From: Acidobacteriota bacterium
GTDB taxonomy: Bacteria > Acidobacteriota > Blastocatellia > RBC074
DNA length: 64,000 nucleotides
Assembly (NCBI GenBank): GCA_016196035.1
Contig: JACPYM010000066.1
Coordinates: 1 to 64,000, forward strand
Direction of reading: 5' to 3'
Shown: piece by piece, positions 17,871-21,714 of the stretch
How positions within the stretch are numbered: the first letter of the stretch is position 1
How the letters are laid out: each line of letters opens with the position of its first letter
Position numbers and translations under genes: made by a program
Notes under the pieces: generated by a model
The model's input: the letters and a program-made list of their open reading frames with translations, nothing else
Databases searched by the model: none
Told to the model about the DNA's origin: nothing

Positions 17871-18848
17871 ATGGAAATTAAGAACCAAATTCTTACCGGA
17901 GATTGCAAAGTAGTGATGCAGAAGTTTCCTGCCAACTGCCTCTCTGCTTGCATTACTGACCCGCCCTACAACTACGAATTCATCGGCCACAAATGGGACG
18001 CGGCGGAAATCGAAAGGCGAGTGAGTCGAGTACAAGACAGCAAAACCCTGGTTAAAAACATTCCCTATGGCAGCGGCCTGGCTGGTGGCGTAAGAAACGC
18101 ACGCTGGTATAACCGCGTCCGGCAAAACATTCTGGATTACGAAGAATGGTGTTACGAATGGGCGGTGGAACTATTCCGGGTTTGCAAAGAAGGAGCCGTC
18201 GTCGCGGCCTTCAACAGCACGCGCACGATGGCCCATTTGCAAGTGGCATTGGAGCGCGCTGGCTTTTATGCGCGGGATTGCATCGTTTACCGCCGCCCCA
18301 GCGGCATCCCGAAAGGTTTGAACCTGCAAGCAAAGTTAAAGCAGATGGGCGTCGAAGAACATCAGGAATGGGAAGGCTGGCATAGCTGTCTCAGGAGTGA
18401 ATGGGAAGCCATCGTGGTCGTGCAAAAGCCCCTCATCAACAATTATGTCGAGACCTTGTTGAAGAATGGCGTCGGGTTATTTCGTGCCCTCAATGAAGAC
18501 GGGTCGTTTCAATCTAACATCATCGAGAACATCCCGCGCGATGCCGAAGAGCAGGAAAATGTTCATTGCACCGTCAAACCCCTGGCCTTGATGGAAAAGC
18601 TGGTTCAAATGTTTGTGCCTGCCTCGCCAGAGCATCTGGTGCTTGATCCGTTTGCTGGCTCCGGGACAACGCTCGTAGCTGCCAAGAAGCATGGTTGCAG
18701 CTACGTTGGAATTGAAACTGTACCTGAGTATGTAGCGATAGCGAGAAAGCGGCTTGGTCAGATTGAGCGGCATAAGGTGACAAGAAAGAAAGCGCCCGCT
18801 AACGGCTTACCTTATACGCCGCCGCTTTGGCTTGAAGAAACTGTTTGA
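17871..18848 (+). CDS. Beta-class site-specific DNA methyltransferase (N4-cytosine or N6-adenine)
   Basis: 325 residues. Motif order is beta-class: motif IV ITDPPYNYEF near residue 25, a long target-recognition region, then VKPLALMEKLVQMF and motif I LDPFAGSGTTLVAAKKHGC near residue 260, followed by YVGIE. DPPY favours N6-adenine but does not exclude N4-cytosine. The gene runs on from the VWA gene in the same direction and converges with the nuclease gene at 18799-19362, overlapping it by 50 bases. It would be the protecting methylase of that second restriction-modification system. Confidence 0.9.
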   Translation: MEIKNQILTGDCKVVMQKFPANCLSACITDPPYNYEFIGHKWDAAEIERRVSRVQDSKTLVKNIPYGSGLAGGVRNARWYNRVRQNILDYEEWCYEWAVELFRVCKEGAVVAAFNSTRTMAHLQVALERAGFYARDCIVYRRPSGIPKGLNLQAKLKQMGVEEHQEWEGWHSCLRSEWEAIVVVQKPLINNYVETLLKNGVGLFRALNEDGSFQSNIIENIPRDAEEQENVHCTVKPLALMEKLVQMFVPASPEHLVLDPFAGSGTTLVAAKKHGCSYVGIETVPEYVAIARKRLGQIERHKVTRKKAPANGLPYTPPLWLEETV

Positions 18849-19362
18849 GGTCAAACCCTGTCAACTGCTGAATGAAATTGTAAGTAGCATTGCCCGTCAG
18901 CACCTGCCAACCGCTTAGCAGACAAGCGTTGATGGCATTCCCAAGATTATCCTCCCGCACGATCAACAAGATCGGTTGATAGTTCTGCTCAGTGAGCAAT
19001 TTTCCATAGCCCTTGAACTTCTTCAGTGTGCCGGAGTCGCCGGAGCCAATGCGGTATTTGGTGTCAATCGCTTGGCGATCAACGATAAAGTCGCAAGGCT
19101 CATCCGCTCCGATCCGCAAGGCTGGTTTGAAGCCTGGACAAGTCTGGCGGCATAGTTCAATCACCAGCCGTTGCCAGCACATGCCCAACTCGCGCCCCCA
19201 GTATTGACGGTTTTCCCGCTTCAACTCAGGCGTAATAGCAAAAGCCGCCATCAATAGATCAACCTCGTTGTTTTCTTCCTGGTAGGTTTTGCGGGAGAAC
19301 GAGTCCTGATATTGGCTCAGAATTTGGCCGAGGGAGGTTTCAATTTTTTCGCTTTCGTTCAT
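18799..19362 (-). CDS. Type II restriction endonuclease, ApaLI-like
   Basis: 187 residues. The segment EPCDFIVDRQAIDTKYRIG followed by GSGDSGTLKKFKGYGKLL has the D-x-K layout of PD-(D/E)xK nucleases (Asp in CDFIVD, Asp and Lys in IDTKY) and strongly recalls the ApaLI-like restriction enzyme family. QPILLIVRED continues the core fold. If the family assignment is right the site could be GTGCAC, but closely related nucleases can differ. The gene converges with its methyltransferase and overlaps the controller gene upstream by 23 bases, the usual C-R gene order in which the controller delays nuclease production. Confidence 0.75.
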   Translation of the reverse strand: MNESEKIETSLGQILSQYQDSFSRKTYQEENNEVDLLMAAFAITPELKRENRQYWGRELGMCWQRLVIELCRQTCPGFKPALRIGADEPCDFIVDRQAIDTKYRIGSGDSGTLKKFKGYGKLLTEQNYQPILLIVREDNLGNAINACLLSGWQVLTGNATYNFIQQLTGFDLKQFLQAKAAAYKVSR

Positions 19363-19579
19363 TGCGCTCTTTCAGGCAATCGCTCAATTTGACGCCTAAT
19401 GCTGCTGCGATGCGGTTGGCGTTGAGCAGCGTGATATTGCGTTCGCCACGTTCGACTGCGCCGATATAGGTGCGATGCAAGCCTGCCAGATCAGCCAGCG
19501 CTTCCTGCGATAAGCCTTGAGCAAGGCGTAATCTTTTGATGTTGTCGGCAAAAACTTGCGTCACATCCATACGCCACAT
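19340..19579 (-). CDS. XRE-family controller (C) protein of a restriction-modification system
   Basis: 79 residues from the ATG at 19579; an ATG at 19570 would give 76. The helix-turn-helix is RLRLAQGLSQEALADLAGLH followed by RTYIGAVERGERNITLLN, the standard XRE pattern, with the C-protein-like continuation ANRIAAALGVKL. The ending is very basic. It overlaps the nuclease gene and is preceded by a near-perfect C-box, so it should bind as dimers, first switch on its own operon and then limit it, giving the methylase time to act in a new host. Confidence 0.88.
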   Translation of the reverse strand: MWRMDVTQVFADNIKRLRLAQGLSQEALADLAGLHRTYIGAVERGERNITLLNANRIAAALGVKLSDCLKERNERKRKN

Positions 19580-19590
19580 TTAACCCCAGT

Positions 19591-19620
19591 GATGACTATC
19601 AGGCGACAGACTATGAGTAG
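19591..19620 (-). promoter_or_regulatory. C-box operator of the controller protein
   Basis: Read on the minus strand, the stretch contains ACTCATAGTCTGT, then CTGATAGTCAT. This follows the known two-site controller operator (GACTTATAGTCCGT ... GATTATAGTCA, as remembered for Esp1396I) almost position for position, including the spacing between the two AGTC half-sites. It ends 12 bases upstream of the controller gene start, where such boxes normally lie. Confidence 0.75.
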
Positions 19621-19685
19621 CATCGTGAATGTGCTACATTCCGCGCGGCTCAGAATTGGAGGGTTTGTCGTGAAGGAGTGGAGTG

Positions 19686-20480
19686 ATGAAGTTTGATGAG
19701 TTGGATGAAAAGATGCGCGTCTACGAAACCGCCCACGATCATTGCGCCGTGCCGGGGATGTTTCTGGCCGCGCGGATTGACGGGCGCAGCTTCACGCGGC
19801 TGACGCGCGAGGTGCAGCAGTTCGAGGCGCCCTTTGATGAACGCTTCCGCGATCTGATGGTGGCAACGACGGAGCATCTGATGCAGTGCGGCTTTCGGGT
19901 GATTTATGGCTACACGCAAAGCGATGAGATTTCGCTGCTGTTTCATCCGCTCGAAAATGCTTTTGGCCGCAAGCTGCGCAAGTACGATTCGATTCTGGCG
20001 GGCGAGGCGAGCGCGAAGTTCGCCTTGCTGCTGGGCGCGCACGCGGCGTTTGATTGCCGGTTGTCGTTGCTGCCCAATGCCGGGCTGGTGCGCGATTACT
20101 TCCGCTGACGCAACGAGGACGCGCACCGCAATGCGTTGAATGGCTGGTGTTACTGGACGTTGCGCAAGGACGGTTTGGATGTGACGCGGGCGACGAAGCA
20201 GTTGGAAGGCATGTCGGTGGCAGCCAAGAACGAGTTGTTGTTTCAACACGACATCAATTTCAACGACGTGCCGAACTGGCAAAAGCGCGGCAGCGGCTTG
20301 TATTGGGAAAGCTACGAAAAGCCTGCCCTCAATCCGCAGACGGGCGCACAGGTCTTTGCCCTACGGCGGCGCATCAAGGTAGATTACGAACTGCCGATGC
20401 GTGATGCTTACAGCGAGTTTGTGTTGAGTTTGTTAGCGCGGGAAACCGCCGTCACGCTTCAGCCCACACCTTATGAATAA
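19686..20480 (+). pseudogene. Thg1-like tRNA 3'-5' polymerase gene with an in-frame TGA
   Basis: Start ATG 19686 has AAGGAG seven bases upstream. The frame encodes the Thg1/TLP family: FLAARIDGRSFTRL with the first metal-binding Asp, GYTQSDEISLLFHP with the second metal site, and DAHRNALNGWCYWTLRK. Thg1-like bacterial enzymes add nucleotides in the 3'-to-5' direction to repair tRNA 5' ends. A TGA at 20106-20108 interrupts the frame between DYFR and RNEDAHRN. The same frame continues without shift to 20480. In homologues I expect Trp at this point (YFRWR), so one G-to-A change of TGG explains it. It could be a nonsense mutation, sequencing error or read-through. The stop overlaps the MFS gene by 8 bases. 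Confidence 0.8.
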
Positions 20481-21714
20481 AGTCTCCTGGCGATTGGTTT
20501 CGATTTTGGGAGCGTTGACGGCGTTCGGCTCGCTCTCGATTGATATGTATTTGCCGAGCTTTCCGACGCTCGAAAAAGAATTGCGCGCGAGCGGTTCCGC
20601 CGTCCAGTTTTCGCTGGCGGCGTTTTTTATTGGGCTGGCGTTGGGACAGGCGTTTTACGGGCCGTTGGCGGATCGGTTCGGGCGTAAGCGTCCGCTGTAT
20701 TTTGGCGTCGCGCTTTATGTGGTGGCGTCGGTGGGTTGCGCGTTGGCTCCGAATATCGAGAGCCTGATTGCGTGGCGTTTTGTGCAGGCTGTGGGCGGCT
20801 GCGCGGGGATCGTGATTGCGCGGGCGATGGTGCGCGATCTGTTCGATCACCATTCGTCAGCAAAGGTCTTCTCGTTGCTGGTGCTGGTGCTGGGCGTGGC
20901 GCCGATTCTGGCGCCGGTGCTGGGCGGCTATGTGCTGAAAGCTTATGGCTGGCGTGCGATCTTCGTGATTCTGGCGGTGTTTGGCGTGGGCTGTTTACTA
21001 GCGGCAATTTTCGGTTTGCAGGAGACGTTGCCGGAAGCGGCGCGGCATACACACGACAATCCGATTCGCACGGCAGTGCGCGTATATGGGCAGTTACTGG
21101 TTGACCGGCGGTTTAATGGTTATGCGCTGGCAGGTGCCGTGGCGCAGGCCGGGCTGTTTGCGTACATCTCGAATTCGCCGTTTGTGTTCATTCAGTTCTA
21201 TGGCGTGCCGGAGCAGGTTTTCGGAATCCTATTCGGTGTGAATGCATTTGGGTTGATCGCCGCTTCGCAAATCAATCATCGGCTGCTGGCGCGCTGGAAG
21301 CCGGATGAGATTTTGCATTGGGTAGTGTTGCTGATCGCATGTTTCGGCTTGGTGATGTTGCTGATGGCATGGACGCGCTTGGGCGGGATGTGGACGGTCT
21401 GGCCGCCGCTGTTTGCCTTTGTGTCGGCGCTGGGGTTTTCGTTCCCGAACATGATTGCGGGCGCGATGGCGCATCAGGCCGAACGTGCCGGGAGCGCTTC
21501 AGCGTTGGTGGGCACGTTACAGTTTGGGGCAGCGACGTTAGCAGGTTCACTGGTGGGCGTGTTTCATAATGCATCGGCGGTGCCGATGGCGGCGGTGATT
21601 GCGGGTTGTGGCTGTTTGGCGCTGTTGCTGCACCGGATAATGATTCAGCCTTTGGTGCGTGAATTGGGGCAAGTAGAGGTGGAAGAGGAAGTGGATTTAC
21701 AAATTGTGGATTGA
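20473..21714 (+). CDS. Bcr/CflA-family multidrug efflux MFS transporter
   Basis: 413 residues, twelve expected membrane helices. The N-terminal helix with LSIDMYLPSFPTLEKEL and the loop GQAFYGPLADRFGRKRPL are diagnostic of the Bcr/CflA branch of drug:proton antiporters. WRFVQAVGGCAGIVIARAMV and the helix-5 motif VLGVAPILAPVLGGYVL also match. The ending EVEVEEEVDLQIVD is acidic. The start overlaps the 3' end of the Thg1-like gene, so the two are likely cotranscribed. Confidence 0.92.
   Translation: MNKVSWRLVSILGALTAFGSLSIDMYLPSFPTLEKELRASGSAVQFSLAAFFIGLALGQAFYGPLADRFGRKRPLYFGVALYVVASVGCALAPNIESLIAWRFVQAVGGCAGIVIARAMVRDLFDHHSSAKVFSLLVLVLGVAPILAPVLGGYVLKAYGWRAIFVILAVFGVGCLLAAIFGLQETLPEAARHTHDNPIRTAVRVYGQLLVDRRFNGYALAGAVAQAGLFAYISNSPFVFIQFYGVPEQVFGILFGVNAFGLIAASQINHRLLARWKPDEILHWVVLLIACFGLVMLLMAWTRLGGMWTVWPPLFAFVSALGFSFPNMIAGAMAHQAERAGSASALVGTLQFGAATLAGSLVGVFHNASAVPMAAVIAGCGCLALLLHRIMIQPLVRELGQVEVEEEVDLQIVD

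Follow-up and report, generated by a model that had tools for sequence, protein, structure and literature searches.

From its sequence, the frame at 19686-20480 on the plus strand was confirmed as the gene of a bacterial Thg1-like protein (TLP) that is broken by one stop codon. We consider it likely that a real and very recent nonsense mutation, TGG to TGA at Trp141, disabled the only gene for a Thg1-like 3'-5' RNA polymerase in this genome. Positions without a prefix refer to the window, which is the whole stretch of 64,000 nt that was analysed.

The interrupted Thg1-like gene and its surroundings

Translation of 19686-20480 gives a single frame of 264 residues in which the TGA at 20106-20108 is the sole internal stop, as the initial annotation had described. 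The TGA is codon 141, it is flanked by ...VRDYFR and RNEDAHRN..., and the next base is C. Profile searches supported the proposed Thg1-like identity. Upstream of the stop the frame hits the Pfam family Thg1 (PF04446) with 103.6 bits, and downstream of it Thg1C (PF14413) with 47.3 bits; both scores exceed the cut-off. Both domains are thus present, but in two open stretches with the TGA between them, and the coding signature of the genome is found in both halves of the frame. No second Thg1 gene was found; the TLP is the only Thg1 match in the 9.59-Mb, 139-contig genome, which is 96.9% complete and 0.18% contaminated. This soil-type bacterium was taken, from its relatives, to be an acidobacterium of class Blastocatellia, and its contig C66 holds the window. 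The features of the locus are as follows.

17871-18848, plus strand: N6/N4 DNA methyltransferase of a type II-like restriction-modification locus (PF01555; PADLOC MTase_II, 3.4e-42)
18799-19362, minus strand: putative restriction endonuclease (weak PADLOC REase_II match, 3.7e-4; assigned mainly by position)
19340-19579, minus strand: helix-turn-helix (HTH) control (C) protein, divergent from the TLP (PF01381; PADLOC Control_protein, 9.4e-26)
19673-19678, plus strand: RBS-like AAGGAG, 7 nt before the ATG at 19686
19686-20105, plus strand: TLP codons 1-140, palm domain with the catalytic carboxylates D32, D80 and E81 (PF04446)
20106-20108, plus strand: in-frame TGA, codon 141, at an invariant Trp (TGG in 86/86 homologues)
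20109-20480, plus strand: TLP codons 142-264 and the TAA stop, Thg1C domain, frame intact (PF14413)
20473-21714, plus strand: Bcr/CflA-type MFS efflux transporter (TIGR00710, 326.7 bits), whose ATG overlaps the TLP stop in ATGAATAA

The putative endonuclease sits between the methyltransferase and the control protein, an arrangement that is kept in two genomes of the same family, here called G006 and G008. Between the control gene and the TLP, 19562-19623 shows about 82-84% identity over 61 bp with the same two genomes and contains ATCAGGCGACAGACTATGAGT, a putative operator of the control protein.

With the TGA read as Trp, structure prediction returned a model with the TLP fold (pLDDT 88.9, pTM 0.85) which matched solved TLP/Thg1 structures, the best PDB match being 5axk (E 2.4e-18). 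Residue 141 lies within a long helix, 132-161, of the predicted model, hence a product of 140 residues loses most of this helix along with everything downstream. Translation would mostly end at this point, and the fragment is predicted to retain the metal-binding carboxylates without the rest of the fold, so that it should be inactive.

Conservation and the age of the proposed mutation

A tblastn comparison showed Trp, always encoded by TGG, at the position of codon 141 in all 86 scorable homologous loci, and Trp also in the aligned human enzyme. The expectation of a Trp removed by one base change was therefore borne out, and homologues without the residue were absent from the set. Further, the metal-binding carboxylates D32, D80 and E81 are invariant among the homologues and correspond to D30, D75 and E76 of the Bacillus thuringiensis TLP (PMC3701042).

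Codon 141 aside, the two halves together match the consensus at every one of the 64 query columns with conservation of 98% or more, and V28A is the only deviation among the 82 columns conserved at 95% or more. Identity after the stop divided by identity before it gives 0.84 (rank 67 of 87), as compared with a median of 0.81 and a 5-95% range of 0.73-0.87 for the homologues. Judged by these alignments the post-stop half is conserved as well as in intact homologues, which along with the Thg1C match agrees with the earlier observation that the downstream half keeps the family motifs. We applied a simple substitution model in which nonsense makes up about 3.3% of random changes and 17.6% of them fall on the columns conserved at 98% or more. 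As there are zero changes at these columns, the neutral divergence since the loss is bounded at about 2% per site. The lack of further damage means that the mutation is recent, that readthrough makes it tolerable or that it is an error; a long-standing pseudogene was rejected, since the gene has no further decay and its post-stop conservation is normal. The suggestion of a recent event was upheld on the same grounds.

The initial annotation also called bacterial Thg1-like proteins rare. This seems overstated, as a single scan found 296 relatives, a Pyrinomonadaceae homologue included, though among the other genomes of the class that were searched, 57 in number, a Thg1 match turned up in just 7.

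Loss in related genomes and the kinase partner

The same restriction-modification set is found beside the same VWA-type protein in G006 and G008. G008 retains a TLP remnant whose residues 2-85 share 81% identity with the present TLP and are interrupted by two TGA codons and one TAG; the gene is wrecked after about residue 75, and no homology was found beyond about residue 85. The break of this remnant (L090:8722-8756) holds a perfect 12-bp inverted repeat, CTGATAGCAGTC...GACTGCTATCAG, which introduces three stops at once and might be explained by a template-switch event. In G006 the TLP is deleted from the locus, with a VWA gene fragment in its place, and no TLP was found in the remaining same-family genomes searched. 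Hence, as read from the assemblies, an intact TLP is missing from all three same-family genomes with the locus, in each through a different lesion.

In most of 80 loci from the scan of relatives the TLP directly follows a P-loop gene of about 150 residues (AAA_33), which usually overlaps the TLP by a few bases; the cluster of P-loop genes contained spurious overlapping frames, hence "most" in place of an exact count. The association of bacterial TLPs with a polynucleotide kinase was described by Anantharaman and colleagues, with the kinase proposed as the source of the 5' phosphate needed by Thg1 (PMC2904730). Genome searches did not find this partner gene in the present genome, in G006 or in G008. 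Nor was it found in G036 and G056, two further genomes of the class that have intact TLPs, and hence a TLP can be kept without this neighbour. Judging by these two genomes the missing kinase does not by itself make a TLP useless, which is a point against the reading as a recent loss. The tRNA-His genes of the present genome encode the G before the acceptor stem (G-1) along with C73; the identity of tRNA-His therefore does not depend on the TLP, which agrees with PMC6471195.

On the sequence of the gene itself, functional readthrough and a base-call error would fit equally well, since the TLP has no other decay. We favour recent loss because the gene is wrecked or deleted at the same locus in two genomes of the family, and because the kinase partner is missing and other genes of the genome are interrupted by TGA and TAG. 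The cell would tolerate the loss because the repair role of the enzyme is probably conditional. UGA is the leakiest stop and in E. coli is mainly misread as Trp, hence the TGA allele is probably a hypomorph and not a null; leaky decoding could leave about 1% of full-length enzyme, which would make it a strong hypomorph.

Decoding of the TGA codon and competing explanations

To the three possibilities left by the initial annotation (recent loss, readthrough or sequencing error) our results add a preference for the first, from the lesions of the relatives, the missing kinase and the other interrupted genes, while dedicated TGA-to-Trp recoding is not supported. The RF2 gene prfB has an intact frame (500.6 bits). 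The genome has two tRNA-Trp genes, both with anticodon CCA, and one of them has the usual 5 bp in its anticodon stem; no tRNA-Trp with anticodon UCA was found. No stops occur within 80 ABC-domain matches. We scanned 911,003 bases, about 9.5% of the genome, for coding signatures and obtained 23 in-frame stops with coding-like flanks (10 TGA, 7 TAA and 6 TAG); most of these seem to be places where adjacent or overlapping genes share a frame. The interrupted genes that we accepted were the TLP, a protein kinase with TGA and a protein kinase with TAG; a methyltransferase-like gene with TAG probably counts as well. The two Ser/Thr protein kinase genes are each broken by one stop, a TGA at L238:7438-7440 (minus strand) and a TAG at L210:3893-3895 (minus strand), and are otherwise intact nearby. 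The proposed search for more TGA-for-Trp cases was negative: within the 0.91-Mb sample, the TGA of the TLP was the only one seen at a conserved Trp position. We rejected general recoding of UGA to Trp, given the presence of RF2, the CCA anticodons, the lack of further TGA-for-Trp codons in this sample and the interruptions by TAG as well as TGA. As far as can be told from the genome, the picture is that of an ordinary nonsense mutation and a selenocysteine system, not recoding.

A gene still under selection is another explanation, in which tRNA-Trp(CCA) reads UGA141 often enough to supply a useful low level of full-length TLP with its native Trp; this we regard as unlikely. A TGA at a Trp codon is the nonsense change whose leak gives the correct residue, and among the stops of E. 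coli UGA leaks most, with mostly Trp inserted and reporter means of 0.2-7% depending on temperature (PMC11126739). The post-stop half of the TLP is fully conserved, but recency alone explains this, and outright loss of the TLP in two genomes of the same family argues against selection for it. In-frame stops under purifying selection have been reported in bacteria (PMC7918605); here RF2 is present, and the sample gave no further TGA at a conserved Trp.

Both tRNA-Trp genes have A at position 24 (A24), as does the classical UGA suppressor tRNA-Trp of E. coli. The copy in a tRNA array also has a C27.A43 mismatch, which would reduce its anticodon stem to 4 bp. The suppressor change is named G24A in PMC13092985, and an anticodon stem of the 4-bp type raised UGA readthrough in E. 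coli about 2.5-fold when the tRNA was overexpressed (PMC13092985). Against this, A24 is shared by all 19 parsable tRNA-Trp loci of the class, and we therefore rejected it as a suppressor-type special feature of this genome. That the A24 tRNA-Trp genes and the 4-bp-stem array copy let a bacterium with the standard code keep its TLP behind a leaky UGA, with a tRNA-dependent leak setting the dose of the repair enzyme, is an idea we hold to be very improbable. If readthrough were functional, an unusual tRNA-Trp gene would be tied to the dose of a tRNA-repair enzyme.

The array tRNA-Trp(CCA) lies at L128:7666-7739 (G000:C67:19666-19737, where G000 is the present genome). It belongs to one of two dense tRNA arrays, G000:C2:167002-168708 (L127) and G000:C67:19564-20826 (L128), with 15 and 12 RF00005 matches, respectively; these come in addition to a broad scattered tRNA set and are possibly parts of a mobile element. 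Further, a tRNA-like gene at L137:446-547 (G000:C24:109947-110045, minus strand) has a tandemly duplicated anticodon arm, with CACGCCGCCCTCTCAAGGCGGAGAG occurring twice.

A sequencing or assembly error at base 20108, the true codon being TGG, would need one substitution only in a gene that is otherwise undamaged. We give it a slightly smaller chance than functional readthrough, as the assembly looks sound where checked (the stop-free ABC-domain matches and the completeness and contamination values above) and the relatives have lost the same gene.

It is most improbable that the two parts work as a split enzyme, in which the 140-residue N-terminal part and a C-terminal part restarted at the TTG at 20136 assemble in trans. 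This TTG lies in frame 27 nt past the stop, and a split Methanosarcina acetivorans Thg1 was reconstituted in vitro (PMC6471195). However, the TTG has no suitably spaced ribosome-binding site, a restart there drops residues 142-150 with the invariant R142, D145, R148 and N149, and in the predicted model the break falls inside one helix.

Selenocysteine at UGA141 has next to no likelihood and was rejected. The genome does possess tRNA-Sec and selB, and in three of its genes, those of two AhpC/TSA-like redoxins and one GrdB-like protein, an in-frame TGA appears to encode selenocysteine. However, codon 141 is Trp in all homologues and Cys in none of the 86, and no SECIS-like hairpin follows it: when the 47 nt after the TGA were shuffled, 199 of 200 versions folded as well or better (z +1.88). 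The three apparent Sec codons, by contrast, are followed by compact hairpins. These three codons are at L204:11205-11207 (minus strand), L209:18708-18710 (minus strand) and L170:6035-6037 (plus strand).

On the reading as a recent nonsense mutation, the TLP would show a tRNA-repair gene that has only just begun to be lost, with two relatives that have also lost theirs, and the pattern supports the view of bacterial TLPs as dispensable and conditional. Further, a UGA-at-Trp allele can pass for a null although readthrough may restore the same residue. The genes with in-frame stops under purifying selection described by Belinky et al. 2021 (PMC7918605) are alike in having a single, possibly leaky stop in a conserved gene, while the present case is one sequence only. 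In M. acetivorans thg1 the codon is UAG, decoded as pyrrolysine by a dedicated system in vivo, whereas here it is UGA and no dedicated Trp suppressor was found; that gene is likewise a Thg1-family gene with one in-frame stop, which is reported as a probable product of neutral change too (PMC6471195, PMC2933860). Compared with the bacterial TLPs of B. thuringiensis (PDB 4KGK/4KGM) and Corallococcus, the present gene differs in the TGA at codon 141 and in having no kinase gene directly upstream or found in the genome. It shares with them the family domains, the catalytic carboxylates and the predicted fold, with 74% identity over the best full-length alignments.
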